A stretch of 64,000 bases of DNA from an uncultured Eubacteriales bacterium (GTDB taxonomy: Bacteria > Bacillota > Clostridia > Lachnospirales > Lachnospiraceae): positions 120,738-184,737 of the forward strand of contig CATOIK010000002.1 of NCBI GenBank assembly GCA_951800645.1. Direction: 5' to 3'. The position numbers and the translations under genes were made by a program. The notes beneath the pieces are model-generated. The model saw nothing but the letters and a program-made list of their open reading frames with translations, made no database searches and had not been told where the DNA came from. This document shows positions 37,994 to 63,806 of this stretch, piece by piece (within the stretch, counting starts at the first letter, position 1; each line of letters opens with the position of its first letter).

Positions 37994-40900
37994 ATGAAGA
38001 ATACAAAAGGGCTAATCGTAATTGTCGGCTTGGTAGTGGCGCTGCTTGGTGTGTCGGCCTGGCTGGGAATAAGTCATACCCAGAAAAGCAGGGCGGTGTT
38101 TGAAGGCTCCGGTTACATATTAGAAGCAGACTCCAGGGCAAATTCTGAGAAGATACTGATTAGTCAGGGAGATTCTTACAATAGAAACGAACTGACAAAG
38201 GAACTTACCTTTGAGGACGCTGCAGGAGAAAAGCAGATTGTGTCTCTGGATACCTTCGTCCATTATGACGATGGCTCCGTTGCAGCCATGTCTGAAGGCG
38301 TTGTACTGGATCTGGAAGATGTTTCCGGAAATCTGGTAAACCATTATCCCATTAAGAGCGGCGTTAAAATGACCAAGAACGGTTCCCGGTTCGATTTCTC
38401 TTATGACGGAGCCAGCCTGGATTTTGGCGAATGCCTCTGGAAAATATCTGATGCCAAGTACATGGTATGCGCACCGGATCTCCAGATTCATTTTGCAGAG
38501 GACGATGTCCGCCCTGCAGGAGACAATCTTCAGATTTGCTATATTGACGGCGGCGTAGTGCAGCTTATTACAGAAGAAAACATCTGGCATACCATTGCGC
38601 CGAATGTATATGTAGAGGCTCCTTCCGGCGCACGGTTCTATCTGGCTTCCCAGATGCTGGAAAAAGACAATAATAAGATGTTTGCGTCCAAGCTGAGCCA
38701 TTCCGCAAATGACCCGGCAACTCTGCCCTATGAGGAGCAGAACAACCTGGCAGTGCCGGAAATCAGCATTGAGGCAGTAGACGGTAAAGACGGAGACGCC
38801 GGTGAGGACGGCGCGGACGGTGTTTCCGGTACTAACGGAACAGGCGGTCAGAGCGGTGAAGACGGCGTAATCGGTGAGGACGGCGCTATTGGCCAGACCG
38901 GTGAAGATGGAGAGGAAGGCGAAGAAGGTTCTGCCGGCGGAAACGGAAACACCGGTACAGCCGGTGCAGCCGGAGCTACCGGCGGTAAAGGCAATGCCGG
39001 CAGCAGCGGAGACATTGGTGATACTGGTTACACAGGTAACCGGGGAAATGCCGGTCTGGGTGTAGAGGGAGACAGCTCCTCCAAAACAGCGCTGCCGGTT
39101 ATGACCTTTACAGACTGGGATGTAACCGGAAGTACCGTAAGAGGTACGATTGTGGTGGCGGATGAGCGGGAGATTTTAACTCCCAATACTGGTTCTGTTA
39201 CTATTTTTGAAGCGAAAAGCGACCAGAACTTTATTGTTGCGTCTACTGTGAATGATGACGGCAGCTCTGCCAATGACCCTTTGTTTAACTTCTCCGGAAT
39301 TTCCGAGGAAGGGGTTCGTTTCATTGCCAGCGGTTTAAAGCCGGATACAGAATACCGGATTACGGTAAGCAGCGACTATGTTATGTCTGACAACAGCGGC
39401 GCAGAGCAGACCTATAAGCGGGACTTTATTGTCCGCACCTTCTACACAGATTCTGCAGGTGCTTATATGGAGGTGGAGGATGTTCGTGAAAACTCCATTA
39501 AGCTGACCGTAAACAGACAAAGCTATTCAGATGAAACTGCAGCTACTGTTTATCTTTTGTCAGAGAATCAGTATATGTCTGGTTTTAATATTGACAATGT
39601 GGAAACCGGTTATGCAAGCCGGAATGCTGACTTAAATAGTGGCAGCGACAGCGTAACCTTTTCTCAGGTGAAAGAAAACGGCCAGGAGATAGATTTAAAA
39701 GCAAATACCCTGTATGCCGCATATCTGCTGTCCGGCACAGAGGTGGCGGAAAACATGATCAGCGACCCGGTTCTGATTAAGACCCTGAAGCGGCCGCTGG
39801 AATTTGACGCAGATAAAAAGGTCAGCGTTTCTGTAAATCGTCAGAAGGGCGGCTTTGAGGTTTACCGTCCCAAGGTGACAGATATTGACGCCGGAATCCA
39901 GGGTTATATTTACGAGTGTCTGGACGGACGGGGAAATGTGGTGCGTACCATTACCATCACCGACCCGGCCATTGAGCTGGCTACCTTTTTTGTAGATAAT
40001 GCAGACATTCGTCCAGGTGTGGAATATACCTTCCGGGTGAAGTGTATTTTTGACGATAACCAGAAAGAGACAGAGATTTCCCTGGGTAAGGACTCAGAAC
40101 CTGTCAAGGCTATGGAAAACAACATCCCGGCTATTGAATGGAAGCCGGTGGAGAGCGAACATGAAGGCGCTGCAGATATAGGAGGCAATATCATTATACA
40201 TACCAGCGGCGGCAGCATTTCAGAGCCTACAGCGGATACGCCCATTACACTCCATATTCTGGCAGACGGCGTCTACGAGAATACGATTCTTTTCCAAAAT
40301 AAGGGCGAGCTTACCTGGGAATCTACAGAGGTAATCCTTCCGGTTAAGTTACAGTACTTAAGCGAGAATACCACCTACCGTGTGGCAGTACGGGCTTATG
40401 TTGGCGGTTCAGAGACTCAGTTGGGCTTTGTTACCTTTTCAACCAGAAGCTTAGTCAAGCTGTCTGCTGAATGGAGTATTACAGACCAGACCGGTTATGC
40501 GGTTGCCAGGGAATTTTACCTAAAGCCGGTTAAGTCTGACAACACAGAGATTACAGATCCGAAAGAACTGGAACGGGCAACGCACGACATCAAATCCATT
40601 GGCCGGATGGAGCTGACCTTATACCGAGGCAGCGGCGCCAATAAATATAAACTGGAAACGGTTGTGCTGGAAAACCAGAGCGGGGATCCTTACAACAGTG
40701 ATATTGCACAAAAATACTTTAATCCGGATGAACCGATGCTTTTAAGTGAGAGCTTCTTCGGATTGTCTTCCGGCCAGTTAAACGACTCCTTTAACTACAC
40801 CCTGGAGGTGACCGGAGTATACGACTATACCTATAATAAGCAGCAGGGTACAAACTTAAGCGGCTATGTAAATGAGTTTGAGGTAAATACAAGGTCAGAG

Positions 40901-43900
40901 AATGTAACCAAGTCGATTATTCCGCCGGAGCTTCCGGCTCCTAACCGGGCGGATCAGAGCTTGCTTGCAGAGCCAATTCCCAATCAGGACGCAGCAAAAT
41001 ACGGCAAGACGGTAAATGAGAATCTGCCAAATAACGCTGTTATTGGTTACCGGCTTACCCCTACCTATGACAACGGCAACTCTCTGGCCCGTAAGATTAC
41101 CTTTTATGCATATGAGGCCCAAATGTATAAGAATTCCGAGATAAATCAGTCAAATGTTGTTTATCAGGATGAGTTGAGCGGCGGGAATAACTACTGCTTT
41201 TCCTATACTTTGGATGTATCTGCCCATACGGCGGAAATACCGGGTCTGATTGTATTCTTTGGTGATGGGGAAGATACCTATTACGAAGGAACCCGTGTGG
41301 CATATGCAGGAGAGGCAAAATATAATTCGGCTCTGAAGACTTTGGTTGGTATGGACCGGGGCTATCAGTATGTGTTTGCCTATACCGTAGGCTATTCGGA
41401 GAACGGTGTAGGAGAGGCCAATAAAGTGTATCCGTTCGATATGGCTGACTTTAAGGATTATCAGGACAATACAGAATATAAAGTATATACTTTAAACTCC
41501 GGTATTAAGAAAGCCCCCAGAAGTAATCCGATTTTCTACGCTTATCCGTTAATGGGCGGAAATGGGCGCGGGTCCAATGGCTCCAGATTAACCATACGCT
41601 ACTATTACACAGATGCAGATAATACCATTGAGCCGGGAAATACCGGAATCAATCTGACAGAAAGCAATGGAACTGTGCTGCCCCATGATCCTGTTGGCCA
41701 GCCTGGGCAGTGGAATGATCTGACCCTTAACCTGAGGAGTACAGGCGGCACAGGAGCCCTTATTTATTCTCCCTGGCTGGACTATAAGAAGTATGAGATT
41801 AAGTATGAGGCGTTTTCGGTACCCGGTATTTTTGACAAGGAGCCTACCTTCTACATAGGGCACTATCCTATAGAGCGGCCCAGCGGGACTGTTTTGGATG
41901 CCATCAGCAAACTTACTATCCAAGTGGACGCCGGCAAGGTTAATCAAAACCAGTTGATATTTATAGTGCAAGGCAAGGGTATGACAAATGACACATTCCA
42001 GGCTGCCCTGAGAAGAGTGGTTGCTTTGAAGGTCATCTTTACCCAGAATGGTAAAAAACTGGAACGGTATCTTCGTGTAGACCCCAACTCCCGTGAAGCC
42101 AGTATGTCCACTGCAGAGCTGGACAGCATGGTGGGAGGCAATGCTATCCATATGACATACGAACTGCTGTACGATACAGGCGTAAGCGGCTGGGATCTTC
42201 TTAAAACGCAGTCTGAGAATGGGGTTGCCAATATTGCTCTTCAGCGGCTGGTAAAGACTTCCATTGACGGAGCTGCAGGAGAAAATGTGGCAGCCTACAC
42301 TCTGGGCAACTATCTTTCCCTGACTACCAGCGGAGCCAACAACCTGGTTGAGACCGTGGCGCCGTCTAACGCTTTGTTACAGTATGATGTGAAAAGAGGC
42401 GGGGTGAGCGGCGACTACAGCGCAGCCAGCTTTGCTCTGAGATATACTGCGCCTACAGCTATTGGCAATCCGTGGACTTTTGACCGTGGATATTCGTTCA
42501 GTATAAATGGTATTGCTCACGGATACTACAACGCAGACGGCACAGCTCCCGGCAACTACGAGATGCCGAAACAGGTGGGTAAGGCAATCGTTAGAGGAGA
42601 CACGGAAGACGATGAATCTTTGCTGATAGATGCGGTTACTCCGTCTGTCACCCTGATGAGAAGTAATCTGTCTATTGGAGTGGAACGGATCACCATCAGA
42701 CAGTTTACTTTAAATGGTTTTGACCAGTTTTTTGAGGCAGGCACAAAACCGCAGGTTCGTTTTGAAATTTATAAAACCTCTGCCGGTGCAGAAACAGGCG
42801 ATCCGGTTGCAATTTCAGATTTTATAAATGTCGAGCAAAACAAAAATGTATATAATGTAAACATCGAAATAGCCGGTTTAGAGAGGAATACGGATTACTG
42901 CATTATTGTCAGATATAGAAGAGACACGGATGACAGTGAAGAGTGGATTAAGCTGATGAGCAGCGTGGATCCTACCGCTACCAATTACCTTCCCTTTACC
43001 ACAAATCAAAATGTTACCGTTACCAAGGGAGATAAGCCCTATGTCATTAAGAATGACGGATACTTTGCAAAGACATTGACATTTGAATACACGATCAGCC
43101 AGTCCTACGCCATCCGGATTGAGTATGAGCTCTGGTCAGGAGACGGAACGACAAAGCTGGCGGATGCAGATGAATTGGATCGTTTAAACATGATTAAAAA
43201 GTATCCTGCAAATTATTCGTATACTAACCGGATGAGCGGTACCATGAACATCGGAAACGGAACTCTGATCCGGCCTGGTAATTCCTATCGGTTCTATATC
43301 CGCATCTATCAGAAAGACGGAGATAGCCTGCTGAATACAGAGACGGATTACATTCTTATTCAACGGCCTATGAACGCAGTTCCTAGCTCTTACATTGAGG
43401 CATTTGCCGGTACAACAACTCTGGATTTCTATGTAACGGTTACGGATACAGACAGTTCCGTTATGGGACGGCGTTACGGCACTACGGAATCCACTGCGGG
43501 AATCTACAAGGTGCGGCTGTTCCGTCACGGGGAAGGAGGCGAATGGGTATATACGCCTACCGAACATGACAATACCCTGTTCTATCTGGGAGGAGGACGG
43601 CAGCAGATCCACTTTGAAAATCTGGCTCCGGAGTCAGAATACAAGATTGCCCTTTATGCAGTTTTGGATGTGGATGAAAGCGGACTGAATGACAACGGCC
43701 CTGACGCAGAGCTTGAGAAACATGACTGGAGCTACTACTACAGGGGGACGGGTCAGAATGACGGAGCTTCTGCAAGCTGCAATATTGCAGATTATGCAGA
43801 CTATGAAATTAACTCCCGTATCCAGAGAACGCTGGATGACCAGGGTATTTACATTGGAGCCATCAGCCTGCAGCAGGAGCCGAACCAGCCTCAGAAGATC

Positions 43901-44161
43901 CGGTTGATGTTAAACGAGGCTTCCGGGCTGGATAGGATTACCAGCATTAACTATAGCATCAGCGGTAATACCGGTTACAATAACTCGGCGGAGATAACCA
44001 ATCAGGGAGGCAGTCTGTTTATGAAAGGAACAAACTACAGCTACTTTACCTTCCCGGATAACTTAAAAGCCGGTTCCGGTACCTATACCGTTGTGGTGCA
44101 GTTAAAGATTGGCAATGATATTTACAGAACCGAAACCTTTACATACAACAAACTAAGTTAG
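37994..44161 (+). CDS. 2055-aa membrane-anchored surface protein with collagen-like stalk and FN3-like repeats
   Basis: First gene of the operon. Order: N-terminal signal-anchor helix (about 5-25), a beta-rich membrane-proximal domain (about 30-235, with CLWKISDAKYMVCAPDLQI and VQLITEENIW), then 31 consecutive G-x-y triplets (residues 264-356, from GKDGDAGED to GNRGNAGLG) without proline, then about 1,700 residues of beta-sandwich domains with FN3-like ends such as ASGLKPDTEYRITV and IAGLERNTDYCIIV. There is no LPXTG motif, no C-terminal helix and no enzyme motif, so the long body is held only by the N-terminal helix and faces outside. GTG 37991 is an alternative start with a slightly better ribosome-site distance. 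Likely a fibre or adhesin subunit; ligand unknown. Confidence 0.85.
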   Translation: MKNTKGLIVIVGLVVALLGVSAWLGISHTQKSRAVFEGSGYILEADSRANSEKILISQGDSYNRNELTKELTFEDAAGEKQIVSLDTFVHYDDGSVAAMSEGVVLDLEDVSGNLVNHYPIKSGVKMTKNGSRFDFSYDGASLDFGECLWKISDAKYMVCAPDLQIHFAEDDVRPAGDNLQICYIDGGVVQLITEENIWHTIAPNVYVEAPSGARFYLASQMLEKDNNKMFASKLSHSANDPATLPYEEQNNLAVPEISIEAVDGKDGDAGEDGADGVSGTNGTGGQSGEDGVIGEDGAIGQTGEDGEEGEEGSAGGNGNTGTAGAAGATGGKGNAGSSGDIGDTGYTGNRGNAGLGVEGDSSSKTALPVMTFTDWDVTGSTVRGTIVVADEREILTPNTGSVTIFEAKSDQNFIVASTVNDDGSSANDPLFNFSGISEEGVRFIASGLKPDTEYRITVSSDYVMSDNSGAEQTYKRDFIVRTFYTDSAGAYMEVEDVRENSIKLTVNRQSYSDETAATVYLLSENQYMSGFNIDNVETGYASRNADLNSGSDSVTFSQVKENGQEIDLKANTLYAAYLLSGTEVAENMISDPVLIKTLKRPLEFDADKKVSVSVNRQKGGFEVYRPKVTDIDAGIQGYIYECLDGRGNVVRTITITDPAIELATFFVDNADIRPGVEYTFRVKCIFDDNQKETEISLGKDSEPVKAMENNIPAIEWKPVESEHEGAADIGGNIIIHTSGGSISEPTADTPITLHILADGVYENTILFQNKGELTWESTEVILPVKLQYLSENTTYRVAVRAYVGGSETQLGFVTFSTRSLVKLSAEWSITDQTGYAVAREFYLKPVKSDNTEITDPKELERATHDIKSIGRMELTLYRGSGANKYKLETVVLENQSGDPYNSDIAQKYFNPDEPMLLSESFFGLSSGQLNDSFNYTLEVTGVYDYTYNKQQGTNLSGYVNEFEVNTRSENVTKSIIPPELPAPNRADQSLLAEPIPNQDAAKYGKTVNENLPNNAVIGYRLTPTYDNGNSLARKITFYAYEAQMYKNSEINQSNVVYQDELSGGNNYCFSYTLDVSAHTAEIPGLIVFFGDGEDTYYEGTRVAYAGEAKYNSALKTLVGMDRGYQYVFAYTVGYSENGVGEANKVYPFDMADFKDYQDNTEYKVYTLNSGIKKAPRSNPIFYAYPLMGGNGRGSNGSRLTIRYYYTDADNTIEPGNTGINLTESNGTVLPHDPVGQPGQWNDLTLNLRSTGGTGALIYSPWLDYKKYEIKYEAFSVPGIFDKEPTFYIGHYPIERPSGTVLDAISKLTIQVDAGKVNQNQLIFIVQGKGMTNDTFQAALRRVVALKVIFTQNGKKLERYLRVDPNSREASMSTAELDSMVGGNAIHMTYELLYDTGVSGWDLLKTQSENGVANIALQRLVKTSIDGAAGENVAAYTLGNYLSLTTSGANNLVETVAPSNALLQYDVKRGGVSGDYSAASFALRYTAPTAIGNPWTFDRGYSFSINGIAHGYYNADGTAPGNYEMPKQVGKAIVRGDTEDDESLLIDAVTPSVTLMRSNLSIGVERITIRQFTLNGFDQFFEAGTKPQVRFEIYKTSAGAETGDPVAISDFINVEQNKNVYNVNIEIAGLERNTDYCIIVRYRRDTDDSEEWIKLMSSVDPTATNYLPFTTNQNVTVTKGDKPYVIKNDGYFAKTLTFEYTISQSYAIRIEYELWSGDGTTKLADADELDRLNMIKKYPANYSYTNRMSGTMNIGNGTLIRPGNSYRFYIRIYQKDGDSLLNTETDYILIQRPMNAVPSSYIEAFAGTTTLDFYVTVTDTDSSVMGRRYGTTESTAGIYKVRLFRHGEGGEWVYTPTEHDNTLFYLGGGRQQIHFENLAPESEYKIALYAVLDVDESGLNDNGPDAELEKHDWSYYYRGTGQNDGASASCNIADYADYEINSRIQRTLDDQGIYIGAISLQQEPNQPQKIRLMLNEASGLDRITSINYSISGNTGYNNSAEITNQGGSLFMKGTNYSYFTFPDNLKAGSGTYTVVVQLKIGNDIYRTETFTYNKLS

Positions 44162-44174
44162 GAGGAAAGGCTTT

Positions 44175-46244
44175 ATGCGAAAAATTGGAGATAAGGCAAA
44201 ATGGACATTCGGAATCTTCGGTTTTCTGGCTCTGTCCATGGCAGGCGGCATTGCCTATGCCTCCATGCGGGAGGTGCAGGCTCAGCCGGAAACATACACT
44301 GTGGGAGAAGGAACTGTTGTGTATGATAAGGACAATATTCCGGTGGAGCTTGGCTCTGCCGCAGCCATTCAGAAGAAATGGACCGGGGATTACTGGATGA
44401 GCGCCGGAGACGGAAGCGGAAGCAGCCTGGGGGAACATACCATTTCCTATGACGGAAACAGCGTTACTATCTATGGCGGCGGCTACCAGATTGAGACCGG
44501 AGGCACCCTGACCAGGTTAGATGAGGTAACAAACCTGGCGGAGCGGAATGAGACTGGGCTTTATAAGCTGGCTGACCGGAAATACCTGATTGTAGCTCCG
44601 GAAATCCGGGAAAAGAACGATACCTTTCAGACGGAACCCTATCTGTACCTGGTAATCGACACGATCGGCAACGCCCAGATTTTGTCTCCGGAGGTGAATC
44701 TCCGGTGTACGGCGCCGACGGTTCTGGAGACAGATGAATTTACCTTTGATATAGCAAACGAAACCCTGACAGCAGGAGAAGAAAGCCTGGATCTGACCCT
44801 GGTTATGGGCACTACCAACACCTTTAACTCCGCAGAGTATAAAACGGCGGATACCCCCAAAAACCCGGAAGTTATTGACCTGACTATCCGGGGCGGAAAC
44901 GGTGGTATGGGCGGTATGGGCGGTATTGGCGGCCGGGGCGGAAACGGCGGAGCCGGCGGAATAGGCGGAATAGGCGGAGCCGGCGGAATAGGCGGAACCG
45001 GCGGAAACGGCGGAGCCGGCGGAGCCGGCGGAGTAGGCGGCCAGGGCGGAAACGGCGGAAACGGCGGAGCCGGCGGAATAGGCGGAGCCGGCGGAATAGG
45101 CGGAACCGGCGGAATAGGCGGCCAGGGCGGCCAGGGCGGTAAAGGCGGCCAGGGCGGAGACGGCGGTAACGCCGGTCTTGGTGAGACAACGGATACGGTA
45201 AAAAGTATTCGTCTGACAGGAGCCGCCGCCAGCACCACCAGCATTGATGTAACCTACAGCATTCTGGATCCCTACGGCCAATACGGTATTATCCAGCTTA
45301 CCTTACATGAGCTGGATAAGGATGGGAATGTGGTGGGTCAGCCACATAAATCGGTTTCCCTGGACCTGTTTGACAACGGATACACCTTCCGCAACTTAAA
45401 GCCGAATACCCGGTACCGGGTGGAGCTGAAGACCATTTACACCGATGAAGACGAGGAACTGATAGAAGAAGTAGCCGATGTAATGAATATTACTACCCGT
45501 CTGGTAAATACCAAACTGGGCATTAAGAAAGTAAACACCACTGCTCTGATTGCCACAGTCAAGGTAGACCGGGGAATTGAAGATGAGTTTGCTTATCTCC
45601 ATCTTTTTGGATACTCTGATGGAGAGCTGAATGAGCTGGGAGACACGGTGAAGTCCATTAAAGTCAGAGATGCAGAAAAAGGCACTGTAAGTGTGGTGAT
45701 TCCCTACAAGAGCTCGGATTCCATTACCCAATATCAGGGCTTTTATCTGCGGCTGACCTCCAGCGAGGATCCGGAGGATGAAAGAGCCATGATATACGGT
45801 TCCTTCCTTGGAAAGAACCAGTACTATATTGATCAGGACGATGGTGGTGATGGTGATATTGAAGGCGGTCTGGATGAGGACGAGGAAGATGGAGTAAAAC
45901 TGGAGGATGACTTAAAACCCAGTAAGCCAGAAAAGGTTCCGGAGAGACCCACTCAGGCTCCTACAGAGCCAGAGACGGAAGTTCCTACAGAGCCAGAGAC
46001 GGAAGCTCCCACAGAGCCAGAGACGGAAGTTCCCACTGAGGAATCCACAGAAGCAGAACCTGTGGCTCCTGAGGAAGAACCGGAAAAGGAGACAAAACCT
46101 TCTCCCAGCGTAGACCCAGGCGCAGAGGGAAGCGGAAAGGTATCAGCGGAAGGCCCGACAGATAAGCAGGAGGTATCTTTAGAGAGTCCTTCGACAAGGG
46201 GCGTTCAGGAACAGGAAACAGAAGCACAGAATACGGAGGTATAA
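44175..46244 (+). CDS. 689-aa membrane-anchored protein with poly-GGX stalk
   Basis: Same plan as the protein before it, but shorter: signal-anchor helix (about 12-30), a similar beta-rich domain (LYKLADRKYLIVAPEI near residue 135, AQILSPEVNL), then 31 uninterrupted G-G-x triplets (residues 240-332) ending, like its neighbour, in GNAGLG. Next come two FN3-like domains (YTFRNLKPNTRYRVELKT), an Asp/Glu-rich linker and a PTEPETE-type repeat tail (about 585-689). No sorting signal. GGX arrays can pack as polyglycine-II helix bundles. The gap to the next gene, the c subunit, is only 3 nt, so it is fully embedded in the ATPase operon. Confidence 0.85.
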   Translation: MRKIGDKAKWTFGIFGFLALSMAGGIAYASMREVQAQPETYTVGEGTVVYDKDNIPVELGSAAAIQKKWTGDYWMSAGDGSGSSLGEHTISYDGNSVTIYGGGYQIETGGTLTRLDEVTNLAERNETGLYKLADRKYLIVAPEIREKNDTFQTEPYLYLVIDTIGNAQILSPEVNLRCTAPTVLETDEFTFDIANETLTAGEESLDLTLVMGTTNTFNSAEYKTADTPKNPEVIDLTIRGGNGGMGGMGGIGGRGGNGGAGGIGGIGGAGGIGGTGGNGGAGGAGGVGGQGGNGGNGGAGGIGGAGGIGGTGGIGGQGGQGGKGGQGGDGGNAGLGETTDTVKSIRLTGAAASTTSIDVTYSILDPYGQYGIIQLTLHELDKDGNVVGQPHKSVSLDLFDNGYTFRNLKPNTRYRVELKTIYTDEDEELIEEVADVMNITTRLVNTKLGIKKVNTTALIATVKVDRGIEDEFAYLHLFGYSDGELNELGDTVKSIKVRDAEKGTVSVVIPYKSSDSITQYQGFYLRLTSSEDPEDERAMIYGSFLGKNQYYIDQDDGGDGDIEGGLDEDEEDGVKLEDDLKPSKPEKVPERPTQAPTEPETEVPTEPETEAPTEPETEVPTEESTEAEPVAPEEEPEKETKPSPSVDPGAEGSGKVSAEGPTDKQEVSLESPSTRGVQEQETEAQNTEV
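44892..45170 (+). repeat. 9-bp-unit minisatellite coding the GGX stalk
   Basis: 279 bp of GGCGGA-N3 units (31 codon triplets). Near-identical subunits (for example GGCGGAATAGGCGGAGCC) are repeated, so length change by slippage is possible. Confidence 0.9.
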
Positions 46245-46493
<249 letters not shown>

Positions 46494-46506
46494 GGGAGGA
46501 AGCGAA

Positions 46507-47283
46507 ATGGCGGCTAGCCTGATTGTAGCATGCGTGGTCATGCTTGCCATGACCGCATTTATGGCTGTGGCAATAAAACAGATTACTGTGACGCTGAAAC
46601 GCCAGCTGCGGGAGGACGCGGCTGTGGTTATGGGAACCTACGACAGCCTGATGGAGAAAAAAAGCAGGCAGCTGCGGGCTTTAAACCGGGAACTGGCCAA
46701 AGCCCGCAAGAATGCGGCTCAGACCGAACCCAAACCGGCTGCGGCGCAAAGCCCGGCTGTTTCTCAGACCAATCCCATTGAGGGAATCGGCATGATGGCG
46801 GGGGTGCGGTGGAAACCCAAAGATCTGGGCAGTATGTACCGCGCTATACACCAGGGATTTCGCCTGGATTATGACCAGATTCTTAACCAGGCAGGCCGCG
46901 GAGCAAAAGAAACTGTGCCGTCTCCGGCACAGCAGCTTTTAGATTCTCTGTCCTTTGATACCTTCTGCAGTCTGGCTACTCTGCCAGGGGAAAAGCAGTA
47001 CGAAATCCTGGACAGTGCCTTAAGCGGAAAACAAAAGCAGCTGCTTTTAGAGTATACAGCCGGGGAACCGTCTGTTCAGAGTGTTGCCTTTTACAGTTAT
47101 CTGAAGGCTTTGGCAAAGGAGCAGGACAGCAGAATTGCAGTCCGGGTAGCCCAGGGCGTAAACCTTGACCGGATCCCAGACGGGGTAACGGCAGAGTTTT
47201 CTCCGGATTTATGCGAGGGAATCCAGATTGTCGCCGGCGGACTGCTTTATGACTACAGCATAACAGAGCGGGAGTTAAATTAA
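46507..47283 (+). CDS. Fused b-delta subunit-like protein of the F-type ATPase
   Basis: 258 aa. Residues 3-23 are a membrane helix followed by a basic, Lys/Arg/Glu-rich helix (about 24-70), as in subunit b. After an Ala/Pro/Gln linker, the C-terminal half (about 140-258) is globular and ends in CEGIQIVAGGLLYDYSITER, which matches the delta/OSCP C-terminal pattern (G-G-hydrophobic ... D-x-S-hydrophobic ... L). I read it as a b and delta fusion forming the peripheral stalk, a fusion known in mycobacteria. The b part aligns only by shape; the delta end is the stronger evidence. Stop and next start abut (TAAATG). Confidence 0.72.
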   Translation: MAASLIVACVVMLAMTAFMAVAIKQITVTLKRQLREDAAVVMGTYDSLMEKKSRQLRALNRELAKARKNAAQTEPKPAAAQSPAVSQTNPIEGIGMMAGVRWKPKDLGSMYRAIHQGFRLDYDQILNQAGRGAKETVPSPAQQLLDSLSFDTFCSLATLPGEKQYEILDSALSGKQKQLLLEYTAGEPSVQSVAFYSYLKALAKEQDSRIAVRVAQGVNLDRIPDGVTAEFSPDLCEGIQIVAGGLLYDYSITERELN

Positions 47284-48597: not shown

Positions 48598-48615
48598 CCA
48601 GAAGGGGGAACCACT

Positions 48616-50798
<2,183 letters not shown>

Positions 50799-51078: not shown

Positions 51079-51640
51079 GCTTGTTCGTATCTGTATGCTG
51101 CAGTTAAAGCAGCTTCAGGTCTTTTTGTGGCTGAATGTGACAACGGCGATTTTAGGGGTCGTTGTCTGTTTGGTTTTGTGCCGGAAATTGCGGTGGAACA
51201 GCCGCCGCATGAAGTTCCTGGCTTTATTTTCCAACCTGGAAAACCATGTTATTCTGGGACTTTCCGTGGCGTATATTAAGTTTATGCTGGTGCTTAGCGT
51301 AACCGTTACCGGTGGAGCTGCAGTCCTGTCTCATTATGTGATACTGGTACTTTGCACCGTGCTTTTTGTGACAGCATGTCTGGATATGGAAAAAGGCGTC
51401 ATGGTTGTGGTATCCAACCTGTTAATGATGGCAGCCATGGGCGTAAGCAGTCTTCTGCGCCAGTACATCATCCAGGTAAACCCGGAAACCAGTTATTTCA
51501 TTGTTTTAATTTGTTTGAATATCTGCATTGCAGCCTATGACATATATCTTGGGCTGACAGAAGTGCAGCTGATGATGGAGGAAAAGAGGTCAGCATATGA
51601 AGAATCTCAGGATGAGGGGGCAATCGAGGGAGAAAGCTAA
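51071..51640 (+). CDS. Five-helix membrane protein in the position of a missing Fo a subunit
   Basis: 189 aa; ATG 51071 overlaps the epsilon stop (ATGACTGA) and follows GAGGAGGGG. Five hydrophobic segments: about 17-37, 59-82, 87-104, 108-128 and 139-160, then an acidic cytoplasmic tail. It has no likeness to the a subunit and no aligned stator Arg, although single charged residues occur in or near helices (Lys in AYIKFMLVLS, Arg in SSLLRQYII). By place and topology it may be the static membrane partner of the c ring or the link to the surface fibres. Not a family I recognise. Confidence 0.8.
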   Translation: MTELVRICMLQLKQLQVFLWLNVTTAILGVVVCLVLCRKLRWNSRRMKFLALFSNLENHVILGLSVAYIKFMLVLSVTVTGGAAVLSHYVILVLCTVLFVTACLDMEKGVMVVVSNLLMMAAMGVSSLLRQYIIQVNPETSYFIVLICLNICIAAYDIYLGLTEVQLMMEEKRSAYEESQDEGAIEGES

Positions 51641-52364: not shown

Positions 52365-52376
52365 GGAGGTACTGAT

Positions 52377-55300
52377 ATGAAAAAAATAATACCAATCGCT
52401 GTGGCGATTCTTGCAGCGTTGTTATTTTTATTCTTTTATAAATTCACACCGGTATTTGCAGTAATGGATGACGGCTATGCCCTGACAGAGGACATAGGCG
52501 CAGATCTGCTGGAAGCAGAGGGCAAAGACCGGACAGAGCTGTGGACTCTTACGCCTATTAAATACGAAGACACCCTCTATGAGCGGGGCGGCAAGTATTA
52601 CATTGGCGAGGGAAACAGAAAACAGCAGATTTACTTAAACTATCCCTTATATGTGCTGGATGGCGGCGGACTCCGTTTTATGAACGGCCAGTTCTATACC
52701 GTTACGGGGGATTTTGAATTTCTGCCGACCTATGATGGTCTATACCTGATAGACGGCTATACCTATAATCTGGACAAAAGCCAGGCTGACCCGGATGCGT
52801 TTTATTTTGTAACCCTTCCCAACGGCCTGTTTGTCAATGCTCTGCCCATGACGGTGCGGACCAATCTGGAAACCAAGGAATTGACTGCAAACAGTATTCT
52901 GGCTCTGGATGATACAGAGATCCGCCTGTACCGTTATGAGGAGGGCGTTCTTTGCTATGATAAAGTTACTTCTATGAGCCAGGCAAAAGTAGAAATTGAC
53001 GGAGTGACCTATGATTACCGTGAACTTTTGCGTCTTTTACGTCTGGTGCAGGAGTATACGGCCAGAGTGCCGGGAGTACCGGGGGCGCTGCCGCCGGAAG
53101 TGCTGGCCCCCCTGGAATCCGATGCAGGCTCCGGCAGAGGCGGTTCCCGCAGAAATTCTGACCAGGCAGCAGATACAGAGGTTGTTCCAGATCCTGAGGA
53201 GGCAGAATTACAGGCAGGAGACACCGAGGGCGTCAACCAGGGGCTTGTAGAAAACGGGTCTGCAGAAAGAGAAAGAGAAGATGTAAATGTAAATGGCGAG
53301 GATGGAAGGAGTCTGTCTTCCGGCGGCGGCAGCGACGGCGGCGGAGGAGGAGGCAACAGCGAAACCATCAAATCTGAGGGCGGCGGCGGAAGCGCAGGCG
53401 GCGGCAATACGCCTCCTTCTGATATATCTACCCCTTCCGATGTGCCGGATCCTTTGCCGATACGGCGCTATGTCCGTATCAAAAAGGAAAACTCTGCAGG
53501 AGAGCCCTTGCAAGGTGCGGAATTTACCCTGTATAAGTGGGAATCTGAGCGTCCCAATCCGTCTAAGGATCCAGTGCTGGCTACTAAACTGACTACGGAC
53601 AAAGAGGGTGAATTTTACTTAAATGAGCTGGGCTACGGCTCCTACTATCTGAAGGAGACCAAAGCTCCTGCAGGCTATCGTCTGCCTGGCAACAATGTAA
53701 CCTTTAAGGTAGAGGAGGATGTGCCGGAGGTAGATATTACGATCAAAAATTACCGCCCGGATGAGATTGACGATGGCGGCGGAGAGGATCCAGGCGGCCC
53801 TGGAGATGGCGGCGGTATTCTTGACCCGGATGGCGACGGGTCGGGAGAACTTGAGTACGAACCTCCCAGTGTTTCCGTAGAAGAGTGGGAGCCATGGGCT
53901 TATGCGCTCCACAACAGGCTGAAAATTCAGGATCCCAACGGCTACATCAGCCGGGGCGTCCGGTTTACGGTTTACCGGGTGAACACGAATATTCTGGGGC
54001 AGGAGACCTACAGTACCGTGTGCCGGCAGACGATCAATGACGAGGGAGAAATTAACCTGGCGATTGTACCGCCGAATACGGAGCTGGCCATTGAGGGAAC
54101 CTATCGTTACTACTACTACGAGAGGAATGAGGATGGAACCTCCAGTACCCGCTTGGAGACAGCCCGCTTCCTGGAACGGGAGACTACACGGGTAAGATCC
54201 CTTCCCATTGAGGGCAATGTGTATCCGGTGAAGCTGCCTTTTGAGGATCCGGATATGAACGATTTGTACTCCAACCGGGTAGAGGTAAAAGGTCTGACCA
54301 TTCACAACACCGCAGACTATGATCCGGAAAAGAAGGATTACGAGAACTTTAAGAAAAATACCTTGCCTTATGTGTCCAGAGTGGCCATTCAGACCTCTAC
54401 AGACGGCGGAGCCACCTTTACAGACAGCGGCCGGATGGGAAATGCAGCCTTCAGAGAACTGATTGCAGGAAATCCGGTAGACTATATTTCGGATGCAGTG
54501 CTGACTTCTCAGACCAACTATATTTGCCGTCTGGTGGCTTACGATAAATACGGAAACCAGATTCCCGTAGAGGAAACAGGAAGAATGTGGGAAACCAGAA
54601 CCTGTAAAATTACTCCTGCTGTGGAAGGAAGGCTGACAGGAAATACCACCGGTCTGGTGAGCATGGAGCTTACCGTTACAGACCCGGATCATGCCCTTTT
54701 GCCCTCGGCGGAAGGCGTTGCATTCTACATTCTCTATAACGGACAGAAGACCCCAATTTCCGGTACTCTGGACGGAAATGAGTTTAATCGTCAGGAGGAG
54801 ATTGCCCTTACCCTGGGGACGCATCAGCTGACGATCACCAACCTGCTGTTCTCCAGAAAATATGTGTGGGAGGGAGCGGCGGATTATAACCTGAACGACA
54901 AAAGAGGCTCTCAGCAAGACGCAGTAATCAGCACAGGAAACTTTTTGACAGCGCCCATTGTAAACGGCTCCATGTACCTGGAAAATGAGATAACAGATAT
55001 TGCAGGTACCGGCGCAACATCAGTTCTGAGAGTTACGGAGCGGTCCAGCGCAGAAGTGTTACCTATGCTTACCAGCCTGGAAGTCATTGCACGGCCGGAA
55101 TCCGGAGACGGTGAAGCCAGCGTGCGTGTTAACATTGACGACCTGTTGGAGAAGACCCTGGAGGACTACGATGAGACCCGTGGCGGCTGGCTGATTAAAG
55201 AACCTAACGAGGCCACCGGACAGGTGGGAATTGAGATTTTGGGAGAGAAACCGGCGGAGCCCCCGGAGGGCGGCGGAGAAGCCCCTCAGTTTAACCTGTG

Positions 55301-58300
55301 GAATTCCTTCTTAAACGGCCAGTTCAATCTGAAGGTGGTGTTCCCAAAGAATTCCCTGCAGCAGTCCACCAAGTACCTTCTTACAGTCCGCTCTCTGATT
55401 GAGACCAGCGGAGAGGAGTATGAGATTCCCACTTCCGTTAATAACAGTGCTTTCAGCACTTTGAAGCGGGAGCCGGAGGTGGAGATTGGAGATTTGCTTC
55501 TGGTAAATGATTCCATAGATTTTTACGGTCTGCAGATTCTGGATGAGGACGGAGCTATTATAAACCGGAATGTTAGGGTTTATTTAAAAGATCCGGAAGC
55601 AAATGTTACTTTAGGCAGCAAGTCTCTGAAATCAGGGGAGATTTATGATGATCTGACATTTTACAATCTGGTGAAGCATCGGGAATACATCCTGGAGTTT
55701 GTGGCTCTGGAGTACAACCTGGGCTCTACCTTCTCCACTTATGATACAAATGTGGTGATCGATACCTTTGAGTTTGTGGCCGGTTCCAGTCTCAACGGCG
55801 GTTTAAGCCTGATGGATCTGAAACAGGGCGGCGCTGCCGGCGGAGAATACATGGACAACGGTACGGTTCAGGACGGACTCCTGGCAGATAACGGAACCAT
55901 CCAGGCGGACAACGAGTACAAAACTTCTGATTACATGGAATATGATGAGGATGATACCTATCTGTTCAGCGGCCTTGTTGATTCGATAGAAGGACTGCCG
56001 GTTTATGTGGCTTTCTATAATGAAGACCGGGAGTTTATAAGGCATGTTACTTTGCCCTCTCAGAATGAAGACTATGCCTATTCTCCGGTAAAGGGAAATA
56101 AAGTGGATGGCGCAAAATATTTCCGCTATTCTTTTCCGGCATCCAATGGAAACTGGGCACGGATTAAGCACTATACGCAGGTGCAGGATAATGTAATTAC
56201 TGAGGAGATGCTTGCGGAAGGCTATAGTTACTCCTACGATAGCGGAGGCGCGAAGGTGGCTTCCACAGACTTGATTCCGGTACAGGGAGGCGGCGTGTAT
56301 CTCCGGAACGGCGTTACAAGCTGGATCAGCTACTATAACCGGGATAAGGTTTATATGGGGCGGAGCAGCAGCTGTAAACCTGAAGATTTTGTGCGGGTTC
56401 CCAGTGACTGTGCTTATATTGCCATCTCCATCAGCAATGGAAATAGACAGGATATGGAGCTGTACCAGTTGGGAGACGGCCAGCCGGCAACTGGTTATCT
56501 GGCAGATATTAATGTCCATCTGGAGGACTCCGGCAATTTCCTGGAGTCTGAACCGGAGTACCAGCTGCGGCTTTCCTGGTCAGACAGTTACCGCAATATT
56601 AAATATGTCCCTACAGATGAAGATATAAGAGAGGACTTTGACGGAACCGGAGAGCCGGTAAAGATGATGGATAAGGTTCACAGCTTTACCAGCCTGGAGC
56701 CGGACGCAGCCTATCAGCTGGAGCTGATAGTAACTTACCTGGACCGGGAACTGGTGCTGGATACCTTAAGCTTCCAGACCAATGAGATTTACGACATCAT
56801 TCAGAAAGAGGCAGATCTTCAGAAGGTCGTACAGAATCCAGACGGAAACTACCTGGTAACCAATGATATTGAGATTACAAGAACCTGGAACATTTCTCTG
56901 AACGGACGGGTGGATTTTAACGGTCATACCATTACCTCCCAAAGAAGTTATGCCCTTTTTAACTCTATTTCCAGTACGGGCGCAGTGGAAAATCTGTGTG
57001 TGGACATTGTGACGGACGACAGCAGAGCGAATAATAACTTCAGATTGGTATACACCTGTAACGGAGAGATTACAAACCTGATTTACCGCGTGAGTGGAGT
57101 GGAGTCTTCTAAGAGTTCGCTGATTTACACCTGCGGTGCAACCGGAAAGATAAAAAATGTAGCTATCCTGATTGATAAATCGGTTACCATAAATTCGGGC
57201 GGCCTGTTTATTAACAATCACACCGGCCTTCTGGACAGTGTTTACTACCACATTGCTCCCGGTGAGAAGGTGTTGGTTGGCAAGTTTGAATATCCTAATA
57301 ATCCTTCTTATTGCGGACTTCTGACAAACGACGGGTATGGAGGCAGGGTTCAGAACATTTATGGCGTAGGAGATTTTTATTACTGGATCAAGAATACTTG
57401 GAATCCCTCGATTGTGAGAGCCGATGTAGGCCAGGTTAGCAATTTCTATATCCGGGGAGAATTCTGGGGTGTATCGGAGGATGGAAGCGAGGCACTGGGA
57501 AGCAGCCAGCGGATGGTCAGCGGAGGCGGAACAAACATAAAATATGTTTCGGAGAACACCTACAGCGGCGCCGTGCAGGCAGGCTATATTAATCTGTACG
57601 ACATAGCATGGCAGAAGAATATGCTGGGAAAGGGAAACTTTGATATAGAGGAGCCGGTATCCATGGGCTACTATCCCCGTCTGAAGTTCCCGCCCTCTAT
57701 GCAGGGCAAGCAGCCTTATCTGGAACTGCCTCTGGTTGAGCCGGGAAATGCCATCCGTATTATTGAAAGCAAGGTGCTGGAGGAAACCGGAAGCATGGTG
57801 AGGGTGGAGATGACCCTGGAAAATGCCAGAGCCTATCGGATCTCCGGTCTGGAAGTGCAGGATGTAGATGCTACCGTAAGCCCGGAGCAGACCCATCTGA
57901 ATGGGGTTACTACCATCCAGGTAGTCCTGAACAGGCCTCAGACCTATGTGTCTTCCTATACGGTAAACAGGATTAGGTACAATAACGGCAGTACAGAGCA
58001 GACGGCAGTAACCAGCTTCCCGCTGAAGGCCAGGTTCTATAAAGATGTGTCTACAGTGGTGGATTGGGCAGATATGAAGAATAATCCCCACTGGAATTAT
58101 CGCCTGAAGAACGATATAGATTTCACCTATACCAGTAATCCGGATTATATGGAGATCAACAGGAGTTTCAGCGGCACCATTGACGGCGCAGAGTACAGTG
58201 CAGACGGAACCCCTACTGGCAGGCTGTTTACGGTAAGGGGCATGCGGATGGAGAGAAAGGATCCCTGTTTCTTTACCAATATAACTGAAAGCGGCACGAT

Positions 58301-61300
58301 AAAGAACCTGATTATTGAAGATTTAACCCTGGTGGGCAGGGAGGGCAGCCAGTCTGCCGCCTTTATCAGGACTAACAGAGGAACGCTGCAAAACGTCCAT
58401 TTAAGAAACAGCAACATTTCAGGTTCCGGAAATGTAGGAGGCCTGATAGCTAACGCTGCAACATGTACGGTACAGAACTGTTCTGTGGCGGACACGGTGC
58501 TCAGAGACCTGGAAAGGAGCGTTCAGGTACTTTCCATGGGCGCGATTGCAGCGGAGCAAAGTGGCAAACTGAATATTCAGAACTGTTATGTAAGAGGTGT
58601 GGAGCTGAATGCCAACTACAGTCCCTCTGCAAAAGGGATTGGCGGATTGGTAGGCAGTACGGTAAATGCCAACTATGGTATGCAGATAGAGAACTGCTAT
58701 GCAGACGGCACCATCAATAGTACCCTGAACAATGTGGGCGGAATTGTGGGCAGTATGAGCCATCCAAGCATACGGCTTATCCGCTGCTGGAGCCAGGTGG
58801 TTATTAACACAAAAGGCTCTGTTACAGGCGGTATTGCGGGACAGCATATTTCCGGCAGCGTAAATACGGTGCTGGCTTTAGGCGCAATCAACTCCTCCGG
58901 TTCCGACATATACCGGATTTCTGCCACCCAAAGCGAAAAAGCCTACAGTACCCGTGCACATGCCTATGAAAGGCAGATGTTTAACGGTGAGCCAGCAGGA
59001 CGGATGGACGCTACGATGCTGGTAACCACAGAGGAACTGTTAGACCCCATGTACTGGCAGGATAAACTGATTTTCGGCAGCAGCTTTGACTATGAGCCGC
59101 TGGCTGAGAACCTGCTTCCCAAGGTTTACGAGTACGGAAGCGAGACGACTTTGGTATACGGTCAGGAAGATATAATGATTCAGGGCCTGGGATACGATGT
59201 GAGTCTGGAGAGTGCAGTCTACAACCCCAATGAAGGGGGATATAATGCCACTTTTAAGGTAGTCCATGAGAATGTCAGCAGCAGTGATTTGGAATTCCAG
59301 ATAACCATTGACGGAATTGGTGAGGACGGCATTCCCTTTACAGTCGGAAACGGACTGAATGTGGGAAGCCTTGGAGAAAATACCACCAGTTTACAGGTGT
59401 CCACAGAGATGTATTATAAGGCCTTTGACTCCTACCAGGCAACGGTATCTATCCGCAGAAACGGCAGTTCTTCATGGCAGAGGTTTGGTCTGTCTGTGAC
59501 CTATCTTCAGAATGGTGAACCTTATGTTACTTATTGGGATATCAGGAATCTGACAGACTGGAACGAAAAGATGGCAGTTCACGGACTCAACCAGGAAAAC
59601 TATAAGATTCACGGAATGATCAATATTGGCGGAAGACCGGACTATACAGGCCTGCGGGTCAATCGTCTGGAAGGCGTAAATCAGGAGAGCTGCGGTTTTA
59701 CCAATATCCGGCAGACAAGTATGCAGGACGGCAACCAGGTATGGATTGAGATGGCTGGTATTGTAAAGAACTTAAAGTTTACCAATTTTATGTTAAACTT
59801 TTCTAATCCTCAGTCAGCAGCGCGGTCCAGCACCGGCCTGATTGCGTTTGCATTCTCTGTGGAGAATGTAACCATAGGGCCGGAGAATGAAAATAGTCCC
59901 AGTCAGATTATTATCAATCGGGGAGCCACCCAAAATGTAGGCTTTTTCGGCAAGGTACAGGGTAATATTAAGAATGCCCATGTATCCGGCATGCAGATTG
60001 GCTTTACAGGCGTTGCCAGCACGGCGTCTGACATATCCAATGTGGGACTGCTTTGCGGATATTTGGAAGGTGTAGTCACCAACAGTTCTGTAACAGGAAC
60101 TGAGACTCTGCACAACAAGATTACCCTGGTTGGTGAGGGAGACCGGAAAGGCACAAATATTGGCGGCATGATTGGGAATCACAGTCTGGTTTATGCAGAG
60201 ACTGCGGGGCTGAATAATGAAAACCTGACGGTGACCTATACGGATATTATAGGAGGCAGCAGCATAGGCGGCGTTTTCGGGATACGATCTAACGGTTCCA
60301 TTCCCAATAGGAACATAACGGTTGATCATGTGACCCTTAAAGCAAATTCCGGAAGTATGGGCGGCGTTTTTGGTGCCGTTTGGTATGGCGGCAACGCAGA
60401 GGTCTCTGAGGCTGATGTGCGTAACGTTACCATAGACTGTAATCTGTTCTATACGAATAGTAACGGGGGTATAGTTCTTTCTGGCGGCAATCTTGGCGGT
60501 ATTACAGGAAGCTCTTCTTGGACTAGTGTTTTAAATAGTACAGTAAGGTCTGTGACCATCACCGGTCCGGGAGTGACAGGCGGCATAGCCGGATCGTCAG
60601 CACGCGTTGAGAACTGTACGGTACAGGATGTTCAGATTACAGTAAGATCCGGTAATCAAGCTGACGAAGATGCGGGAATAGAAACCAACGGTTCTAATGT
60701 AGGCGGTATTACAGGTACGCTGAGAGTTGACGGTAGTATACGGGGCTGCCGGGTAATAAATAGCCAGATTAAAGGCGTGCGCAGGGTAGGCGGCATAGTT
60801 GGCAGTGTAGGAGATTTGATCTATAACAATACTGGTATTACTAACTGCTATGTGGATGAAGAGACTACCGTTGAAGGAGCGCTTTCCGTAGGAGGCGCAG
60901 CAGGACAGGTGCTGCGGACTCCTATTACCGGATTTGCCTGCGGTGCAGATGTTACTGCAACAAAAGAGGAGGCCGGCGGTATTATCGGAAGCCTTTACAT
61001 GGCGGATATGAACCGAAATAACCAGTCAATCAATAATATCTACTTTGTAGGTAATGTGCAGGCAGCTAACTATGCAGGCGGTATTGTAGGCCGGGTAAGG
61101 GAGTATGCAGAAGCCAAGGAGCCTACCACGGTTATCCTTCCGGATCGAAAGCAGCAGATTATTGTTGCCGGAGACATTTCTGTTACAAACAATCTGGCGC
61201 CTCATGTCAGCATATGGGCGAATGGTGAGAGGGTCACAACCAATATCGGACAGATGGGCCGGCTGAGAATTTTTGCAGACAGCAAGATTATTATTGGCGG

Positions 61301-63806
61301 AGGCACTCCCATTACCGGCGAAGGCTTGAAGGATTACTTCCCCACGGGCTTTAGCCAGACTCAGAAAGATGCGGGTATGGAAGCTATGCTGGTAGATACG
61401 GCTATGCTGAGTGATCCGGAGTTCTACAGAGGAAAAGCTTATACAGACGGGCAGATTGGCTTTACAGCGGCTAACTGGGATTACGCTAAATTGTCTGCAG
61501 GCAAGATGCCGTATGTAATGTATAACAGTATTCCGGTTACGGTAGATCCTGGTATTAGCATTCCTCAGGGAACCACCCAGTTACAGGCAGCTTTTGCGTC
61601 AGAGCTTACTATGTGCCAGATTTATCCCTCCGGAGCAGATACCATTAACCTGGAGCTGGATCCCGTGTTTGGAGATCAGACCGGTTGGAGCCTGTCTGTA
61701 ACGAATGGAACACAGGAACTGGCCAGAACGGAAATCACCCAGGAGACCTATACTCTGGAGTATGATTACAAAACTCCGCTGAGTGTGGCTGTGGAAAACG
61801 GAACAGAGCGGTATGAGATGACTGTTGACCCGACGCCCTTAAGACGGACGGTTATGACCTGGGAGGATGATTATTATTATCTGACCAACACCGGAGTCCG
61901 CTCTGCTGAGGATGCCTGGGAGGGTGAGTACATTCATTTGATGGATGGAAAGGCTCTTAGCGTAAGCGGAGAGCTTGTGGATTTGGCAGACGGCGGAACC
62001 GATACACTGGAATGTGCATTCCAGTTTAAGGAGGAACCGAAGGTCTTTGCTTCCGGATGGGCAGGAGACGCCCTGGTTCAGGCATATGGCACTTACTCCA
62101 CTCTGGAAAATGACCAAAACAGCGTGCGGCGCGATTCCCGCATCCTGATTCAGGACGGTCAGGTGTATTCCCTGCATGTGGGAAATCCGCTGTACGGCGA
62201 CAGCTTTATCCTGGATTCCTATCAGGAGGACGCGTATTTCACCGTTGTTGCGGACGGACGGTTAGAGCACTTCCAGACGCCTCTCAGGGCGCCGGAGGGC
62301 GTAAGGGAAACCGGCATTTCCCATATGACAAACAACTTAAACTGCAATAGGCCGTGGGTACTGATTCGTTATAAGAACGGCAGCGTAACTGGCTTTAACT
62401 ACATCACCGGCGAATCTCTTGGAGAGCTGGAGAGCCTGGATATGGGCGAGGTAGAAAAAGCAGAAGGCTTCCTGGATTATGCAGGCGGCCAGCTAGGCGA
62501 GATTATCGGCGGCTTCCTGGACGGCATCAGAACTGAGACCGAGGGAACCAGCGGATTCTACTCAGCCAACAGCTTTATGGGTACTTTAAAGACTGCAGTT
62601 GCTCAGGACAGCACCCTGCGTGCCCAGTTAAACAACAGCGAATGGACTAATGGAAGCTCTGAACTTGCAGGCAGCGCAGAAGCAGACGGCCTGGACGCCG
62701 AAGCGGCAGACGCTGGTTTCGGTTCCGGAACAGACGCCGGAGAAGAGGCAGACGCCGAGGATGCAGGTGCAGAAGATTCTGCTGAGAGTGGCGGAGCTGG
62801 TGCGGAAGATTCTGCTAAGGCTGGCGGTGAGGCGGCTGATAAGCAGGATGCAGACGCGGAGAAGACTGGCGGAAGCGGAGCTGGTGCTGGTAATAAGAGC
62901 GGCGCAGGTGCAGGCGGAGCTGGTAAAGCAGACGTAGGCGCAGGCGAAGCCGGTAAAGCAGGTGCAGGTGCTGGCGAGGCCGGTAAAGCAGATGCAGGCG
63001 GAGCTGGTGAAGCAGACGCAAGCGCAGGAGCAGGCGGAGCTGGTAAAGCAGACGCAGGCGCAGGTGCAGGCGGAGCTGGTAAAGCAGATGCAGGTGTAGG
63101 TGCAGGCGGAGCTGGTAAAGCAGACGCAGGCGCAGGAGCAGGCGGAGCTGGTAAAGCAGACGCAGGCGCAGGAGCAGGCGGAGCTGGTAAAGCAGACGCA
63201 GGCGCAGGTGCAGGCGGAGTTGGTAAAGCAGACGCAAGCGCAGGAGCAGGCGGAGCTGGTAAAGGAGACGCAGGTGCAGGTGCTGGTGGAGCTGGTAAAG
63301 CAGATGCAGGTGCAGGCGAGGCCGGTAAAGCAGACGCAGGCGGAAGTGCAGCTGAGGCTGGTGGCGTTGGCGGAAACAATCCGGTCGGAGCCAGTGCAGG
63401 CACAGTTTCCGGAACAGCCGGAATAGAAGCTGCAGATTCAGCAGGCAGTGGAAAAGACGGAAAAGAGTCCAAAGGCGAAACCGCTTTGGCGGATAAGTCA
63501 GGCCGCTCTGTTCTGTCTGAGCAGGAAGTGAAGAAGGAAGGTTATATGGTGGCCTACAATAAGGCTGCCGGAGACTACCAGGTGTACAACATGAACGACT
63601 ATCTGGATCCTTCCAAAGACCTTCTTCTGAGTGAAAACCAGAAACTGAAAGAGCTGGAAAACCAGGGAATCAAGATCAATCTGGATTCCGTAGTTCACAG
63701 CCAGGCCGAAACTCAGGAAAGCGGCCGGGGCATGGCCCTGCTGTTAAGCCTGCTGGCTATCGTTTCCGGTTTGAGCTTGGTACTTTACAAAAAAGGGCGA
63801 AAATAG
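52377..63806 (+). CDS. 3809-aa giant surface protein: SpaA domain, three beta-helix/GLUG blocks, Ala-Gly repeat, C-terminal helix
   Basis: Last gene of the operon. N-terminal hydrophobic segment (5-30; possible cleavage after PVFA), a membrane-proximal domain (about 31-230) shared with operon partners, a Ser/Gly linker, one SpaA/Cna-B domain (about 363-460, [20 protein letters not shown] ... [12 protein letters not shown]), then FN3-like domains. Three blocks follow that look like right-handed beta-helices (about 1475-1640, 1900-2200, 2380-2910), each opened by a W/L-x-N-x-Y-LtnDI-like phrase and rich in GLUG motifs (VGGIVGS, GGIAGS). A 12-residue Gly/Ala/Lys/Asp repeat (about 3509-3655) leads to a C-terminal helix plus KKGRK. 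No LPXTG is present, so it stays in the membrane. Probable large adhesin or fibre. Confidence 0.88.
62901..63345 (+). repeat. 36-bp tandem repeat coding [16 protein letters not shown] units
   Basis: About ten near-identical 36-bp units (GGCGGAGCTGGTAAAGCAGA plus a GCAGG-type filler) form the wall-spanning spacer of the giant protein. Unit variants VGAG, ASAG and KGDA show ongoing drift; unit number may vary between strains. Confidence 0.9.

Follow-up and report, generated by a model that had tools for sequence, protein, structure and literature searches.

An operon of F1-type ATPase genes, a c subunit without its ion-carrying acid and giant surface proteins: a candidate ATP-driven surface machine

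Introduction

What could an F1-type ATPase do when its genes stand among those of giant surface proteins and its c subunit carries no acid at the ion-carrying position? Rotary ATPases are known as ion machines, and the question is raised by an operon at positions 37994-63806 of a 64,000-nucleotide stretch (G000:C2:120738-184737, hereafter the window) from an uncultured Lachnospiraceae bacterium, G000, whose genome assembly has 2.42 Mb and is 83% complete. Eleven same-strand genes follow each other in the order S1, S2, c, b-delta-like, alpha, gamma, beta, epsilon-like, TM5, SP and S3, with intergenic gaps of 13, 3, 13, 0, 18, 2, 25, -29, -44 and 12 nt. Six of them form an F-type set in atp-like order (c, b-delta-like, alpha, gamma, beta, epsilon-like), S1-S3 are giant surface proteins, and TM5 and SP are membrane proteins with five predicted helices and one long helix, respectively.

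These eleven open reading frames (ORFs), on one strand and with the sizes given in an earlier reading of the letters alone (the original prediction), were all confirmed. The F-type set of six announced there stood for c, alpha, gamma and beta, which are recognized by Pfam models, whereas b-delta and epsilon were named for their place and length, with profile similarity that is weak or lacking. As set out below, the evidence tilts slightly towards an F1-type complex that would burn ATP to turn a c-ring and pass force to the giant anchored surface proteins. At the sequence level, this proposal is built on the conservation of the operon, its catalytic residues, the packing glycines and loop of c, the lost carboxylate, the lack of a recognizable a subunit in the locus, the gene order and a fusion of TM5 with SP.

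Conservation of the operon

Genomes were searched with the alpha sequence at E 1e-140 or better, a cut-off that preselects the operon's own alpha clade. Carriers were found in 3 of 391 genomes of a class sample, 6 of 397 of the window's family (f1), 8 of 117 of a second family (f59) and 3 of 398 of a phylum sample; the window's genome is counted in each sample that contained it, and the samples overlap. A genus search with beta gave 2 of 24 genomes at an identity of 64% or more. Pooled over samples, there are 17 carrier genomes (7 of f1, 8 of f59, 1 of f160 and 1 of f197), which together with one contig of a chicken metagenome-assembled genome (L020) amount to 18 loci, each of which was read. 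One genome (G214) was recovered via beta, its alpha being on another contig, and in G834 the contig ends inside gamma and beta was not found in the assembly.

In the 17 further loci, as far as their contigs extend, gene content and gene order are those of the window's operon, S3 alone being sometimes missed. Out of the loci whose contig reaches the gene, b-delta-like, alpha, gamma and beta are present in 17/17, S2, c, epsilon-like, TM5 and SP in 16/16, S1 in 15/15 and S3 in 12/14. TM5 of G019, L020, G880 and G860, on which BLAST was silent, was recognized by position and helix count. The complete set lies on a single contig in six loci (G000, G692, G019, G134 with TM5 and SP fused, G1084 and G1178); contig ends cut some copies, and several genes of G801 and G834 are broken at CGG codons. 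Neighbouring genes outside the operon vary by family, some being common to the close pairs G466/G533 and G880/G860. Judged by gene content and order, the operon is a conserved unit in at least four families.

In the alpha tree, from which mycoplasma sequences are absent, 30 alphas of the operon's clade form one group beside 17 canonical alphas, with support of 99/96. An alpha of this clade was also found in Chakrabartyella piscis (Lachnospiraceae; 3.4 Mb contig, P0042), a host known here from alpha alone.

The co-occurrence that the original prediction proposed to check was borne out: as far as the contigs extend, the alpha/beta pair is accompanied by a c without carboxylate, by the five-helix protein and by the giant proteins, with S3 in 12 of 14 loci. 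The outcomes that it named as refuting, namely a unique cluster with decayed neighbours, normal a and c subunits in the locus of relatives, or giant proteins that are not conserved, were not seen. A decaying, functionless duplicate of an atp operon would agree with the lost carboxylate, the short epsilon-like protein and the patchy occurrence. However, the frames are open, the order is fixed, the catalytic residues are intact across families and alpha forms one separate clade, so that decay is already contradicted by conservation and is hardly credible.

Catalytic F1 part

The catalytic core comprises alpha (437 aa; 47284..48597, + strand; PF00006, 248 bits), gamma (271 aa; 48616..49431, +; PF00231, 92.9 bits) and beta (454 aa; 49434..50798, +; PF00006, 213 bits). 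Beta scores above the NCBIfam atpD cut-off (468.4 vs 462.85 bits), alpha is below every NCBIfam cut-off and sits in its own clade as described above, and gamma matches the canonical gamma profile at 98.6%. The window's beta keeps GGAGVGKT and GERSRE, in line with the intact active site of the original prediction, and its alpha keeps GDKKTGKS and VSRLGG. The motif script was run on 15 loci, with G1084 and G1178 outside this set. Walker A and GERSRE of beta were found in 15/15, the VSRLGG arginine motif of alpha in 15/15 and the P-loop pattern of alpha in 14/15, G713 not being matched by that pattern. The arginine motif also occurs in 120 of 120 alpha relatives among the matches listed (of 7982; the window's own included). 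These residues point to an F1 part that is competent for catalysis.

Two further members of the set are assigned mainly by place. The b-delta-like protein (258 aa; 46507..47283, +; 17/17 loci), a single protein of fused type where a peripheral stalk would have b and delta, has the position expected, one helix, a coiled coil and a delta-like C terminus, and gave no Pfam or PDB match. The epsilon-like protein (84 aa; 50824..51078, +; 16/16 loci) is assigned by position and size. Its length of 84-113 aa across loci falls short of the 130-147 aa seen in canonical operons. If this protein is indeed an epsilon, it would lack the C-terminal inhibitory domain. Neither these two proteins nor TM5 and SP had a match in the Pfam and NCBIfam scans.

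The c subunit and the absent a subunit

The c subunit (81 aa; 46248..46493, +; 16/16 loci) has two helices, scores 28.3 bits with PF00137 (cut-off 24) and carries Thr at the Glu position. The alignment column that is Glu in 11/11 canonical c subunits is Ala or Thr in 14/14 aligned operon c subunits, and in two further loci it was read by eye as Met; an acid at the ion-carrying position was therefore found in 0/16 loci. In addition, the last 31 residues are acid-free in 14/14, and three of the proteins have a single acidic residue in helix 1 or close to it. Both the ring-packing glycine pattern of that helix and the polar loop GRNPETK are kept.

No Pfam match to the a-subunit family (PF00119) was found in the locus. 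The missing carboxylate of c and the missing a subunit, both noted in the original prediction, were thus borne out by alignment and by Pfam, respectively. A genome-wide PF00119 search, run like the motif script without G1084 and G1178, found the family in 5 of 15 host genomes, all of f1; it was not found in the f1 genomes G725 and G713 (87% and 85% complete) or in any of the 8 f59 genomes, among them five with a completeness of 97-98% or 99%. As a control, the same search found it in 9 of 14 well-known genomes.

The separate ATPase sought by the original prediction was found in one family and for the most part not in the other. A PF00006 scan of the 15 host genomes showed a separate F- or V-type pair in 7/7 f1 carriers. 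In 7/8 f59 genomes, all without an a subunit in their assemblies, there is no F/V pair beyond that of the operon (its alpha only in G834), and G880 adds a V-type pair. A weaker PF00006 match near 98 bits in six f59 genomes is taken to be Rho. In G1084 and G1178, further F-type pairs lie on contigs other than that of the operon. Since no a subunit was found in 8/8 f59 genomes and no other F/V pair in 7/8, a role as ATP synthase or ordinary ion pump is very unlikely from the gene content. Seven of the f59 genomes (G466, G533, G808, G834, G801, G860 and G857) are small, 1.2-1.8 Mb, and these seven may have no ATP synthase at all.

TM5 and SP

TM5 (51071..51640, +; 16/16 loci) has 189 aa, or 196 from the listed TTG at 51050; the ATG at 51071 agrees better with relatives. 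It has five predicted membrane helices, the C-terminal one being long: in the structural model (pLDDT 73.8, pTM 0.63) this helix spans 49 residues, and it gives a 48% profile match to canonical b. TM5 is treated here as a putative stator.

TM5 could instead be a remote a subunit, the complex being an ion pump or ATP synthase whose ions take an unusual route, a reading helped by its place beside c in the gene set and by top Foldseek rows that are Fo chains, not significant. Nevertheless, it shows no sequence relation to canonical a (profile match of 0.5%), c is acid-free in its last 31 residues in all 14 proteins and the f59 hosts were found without any a subunit, which makes this alternative highly improbable.

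SP (255 aa; 51597..52364, +; 16/16 loci) is a single-span protein that combines a long N-terminal helix with an all-strand outer domain. Its model (pLDDT 86.3, pTM 0.75) shows a helix of 49 residues followed by 24 short strands in a row. In G134 and G713, which belong to two genera, TM5 minus its first helix is fused to SP as one protein, and in the usual reading of such fusions the two proteins act together. An extra anchored protein of 465 and 504 aa follows the fusion in G134 (L119, L120) and G713 (L121). It is matched by both the SP and the S3 profiles, the S3 domain at 97%, and links the domains of SP and S3.

Giant surface proteins

The sizes and membrane segments of the three large surface proteins were as claimed in the original prediction. 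S1 (2055 aa; 37994..44161, +; 15/15 loci), which may start at GTG 37991 or ATG 37994, has an N-terminal membrane anchor, a membrane-proximal domain, a collagen-like stretch and fn3-like repeats. S2 (689 aa; 44175..46244, +; 16/16 loci) has an N-terminal hydrophobic segment, a membrane-proximal domain akin to that of S1 (match of 83%, E 9e-6), a Gly-rich stretch and a weak fn3 match. S3 (3809 aa; 52377..63806, +; 12/14 loci) has hydrophobic segments at both ends, a membrane-proximal domain, a SpaA domain, repeats and an Ala/Gly-rich stretch. The outer parts of S1-S3 bear collagen-like, fn3-like, SpaA and GLUG-type regions, which are adhesin-type. Two other S3 proteins gave no Pfam match, and no protease was listed in the Pfam scans of S1-S3.

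Such proteins could be the cargo of a secretion or assembly engine, in which ATP would help to export, fold or wall-insert S1-S3 with no later movement. Their genes lie in the same operon, and the FliI/SctN export ATPases are related to alpha and beta. This alternative is considered unlikely: separate alpha and beta with c and a b-delta-like membrane part are kept, unlike in FliI, both subunits score far under the FliI/SctN cut-offs, and S1-S3 bear ordinary N-terminal membrane signals. Since no FliI-like match was seen in G000, flagella are not implied either.

The adhesin-type domains would also suit a reset machine as proposed for the MIB-MIP system of Mycoplasma, where hydrolysis would drive surface binding proteins through a conformational cycle of binding, processing and release, without sustained rotation of fibres. 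The ATPase linked to MIB-MIP is the closest tested analogue (PMC12994834). Against it stands the lack of a protease in the Pfam scans of S1-S3 (MIB/MIP relatives were not searched for), and it is judged a rather improbable explanation.

Further giant proteins were observed nearby. The stretch just ahead of S1 in L130, L131 and L133 (G834, G880 and G860; f59) encodes proteins of 1253-1624 aa that carry hydrophobic segments at both ends and have no BLAST match to S1-S3. Just before the window, L108 (G000:C2:105000-121000) holds large exported-looking ORFs, one with 1134 aa and another whose frame extends over 2941 aa or more. The 1134-aa protein weakly matches a repeat region of S3 (26% over 242 residues, E 1e-4).

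Proposed mechanism

In the proposal favoured here, alpha3-beta3 would hydrolyse ATP and turn gamma, the epsilon-like protein and an ion-blind c-ring, with the b-delta-like protein and TM5 as the putative stator, and no ions would cross the membrane. SP, as predicted by its model, and by extrapolation the membrane-proximal domains of S1-S3, would be stiff rods on membrane helices coupled to the motor. Through these rods the fibres would be swung, wound or cycled, and would so serve in adhesion, in surface movement or in the transport of bound material. From the features described above we infer ring formation, rotation and its coupling, as well as what is moved and what the fibres do. The wider idea of a class of ion-free rotary ATPases, with the c-ring as bearing and drive shaft only, torque led into stiff beta-rod proteins and giant fibres rotated or wound, is put forward tentatively, at somewhat less than even confidence.

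Several points count against this proposal. The system was read from its genes, and the complex, its ATPase activity and the motion are putative. Occurrence is patchy among the genomes sampled (class, f1, f59 and phylum), and 2 of 14 loci (G466 and G533) showed no S3. In these two, the sequence past SP continues for more than 2 kb with other small genes and an anchored ORF, which is cut by the contig end and does not match the S3 profile. The b-delta-like protein matches the canonical delta profile weakly (56% probability, E 1e-4), and the profile of the epsilon-like protein does not match canonical epsilon (2.6%). With weak domain matches between S1 and SP (38%) and between SP and S3 (21%), a rod fold shared by all four proteins is tentative. 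The top Foldseek rows of TM5 are the engineered Fo chains 9jc2_A/B/C, with 6n2d_a lower, as a degenerate a subunit might give; none is significant (E 0.34 or worse).

Operon boundaries and neighbouring genes

A promoter-like site, TTGCCA-18-TATAAT with TG (37833..37862, +), precedes S1. It is a consensus match only, with 11 of 12 positions, and the best in the scanned stretch. Terminator-like hairpins follow S3 at 63843..63909, one at 63843-63876 (minus strand) and the other, a stem followed by T's, at 63894-63909 (+ strand). The original prediction of one promoter and one terminator stood in that sites were found at both ends; similar promoter- and terminator-like sites also occur inside the region, in numbers slightly above those in shuffled sequence. 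A single promoter and a single terminator for the operon are likely from these matches. Directly before the promoter, an O-antigen-ligase-like membrane protein (PF04932) is encoded at 36121-37725.

CGG frame steps in related genomes

In G801, of which 1.28 Mb were read, CGG occurs inside long frames 10 times in 248,819 codons. At 50 places, a few of which overlap, a CGG is instead followed within 40 codons by the end of its frame, while the next frame, shifted by one base, stays open for at least 60 codons. The f1 control loci have CGG in frame in 704 of 63,950 codons, with 22 such frame-step places. In the G801 contexts printed, the CGGN step often falls at the glycine of well-known motifs (such as GRGT-K-TSS, VTGS-K-TEVY, EPGI-K-ST and DVGQ-DS).

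This looks like a natural four-base reading of CGGN as glycine in the G801 lineage, which would account for the interrupted frames of S1, S2, gamma and TM5 in G801 and G834. The steps are at L137-L146 and L157-L216 in G801 and at L130, L132 and L136 in the operons of G834 and G801, with hints in G808 (L153, L155). ARAGORN found 24 tRNA genes in the G801 pieces, an incomplete set, and none for Arg with anticodon CCG. No description of such a reading was found in the literature searched.

Comparison with known systems

As in the original prediction, no description of this gene set was found in the literature searched, with preprints and most subscription journals outside its scope. If the proposal is true, the operon would encode a rotary ATPase whose task, outside the mycoplasmas, is surface mechanics and whose ring is retained but ion-blind; it would represent a bacterial surface machine of a new kind. 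In genomes without a, the retention of packing glycines and contact loop in a c subunit devoid of its ion site suggests a ring kept for mechanics alone, and makes the use of F1 torque outside the membrane a testable question.

The operon resembles bacterial F1Fo ATP synthase in its catalytic sites, gamma, c fold and atp-like order, but differs in having no ion-carrying acid in c, no a subunit, a half-size epsilon-like protein and giant surface proteins included. N-ATPases, which have an ion-pumping role, and alternate F1F0 enzymes are likewise extra F-type sets beside the housekeeping one; however, alpha reaches 346 of 750.5 bits (TIGR03324) and beta 417 of 752 (TIGR03305), below the cut-offs. 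With FliI/SctN, alpha scores 180 bits and beta 214 bits at best, whereas the cut-offs of the models listed are at least 379.

Closer parallels are found in Mycoplasma, where the precedent for F1-like ATPases in non-synthase roles invoked by the original prediction is real: PMC12994834 describes a Type 3 F1-like X0 ATPase as required for the surface antibody-cleaving MIB-MIP system. In PMC3369863, Type 2 and Type 3 clusters are described as mycoplasma-specific and without b and delta. According to these sources (PMC12994834, PMC3369863), the Type 3 X0 ATPase (MSC_0618/0619; MMCAP2_0575-0581) also has alpha, beta, gamma and an epsilon-like protein beside unrelated membrane proteins, no recognized a subunit, a genetic tie to surface proteins and, in many hosts, the place of a second set beside the housekeeping ATPase. 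Unlike it, the operon has c and a b-delta-like protein (with weak delta homology), S1-S3 without a protease by Pfam, and no 12-helix membrane protein, the helix counts of all window genes being at most five. The Type 3 X0 NCBIfam scores are below cut-off (alpha 293 of 520, beta 398 of 570 bits).

The gliding machine of Mycoplasma mobile, with its Type 2 G1-ATPase (MMOB1660/1670), is similar in that an F1-like motor is coupled to large surface proteins. However, beta of the operon (454 aa) has no N-terminal extension, the membrane parts differ from those given in PMC12994834, and the scores of 378 of 600 and 364 of 850 bits are below the NCBIfam cut-offs. The operon fails the defining parts of the Type 2 and Type 3 G1/X0 ATPases, yet it follows the same principle, with an F1 motor that is dedicated to surface proteins, and by analogy it would work most like these F1-like ATPases of Mycoplasma.

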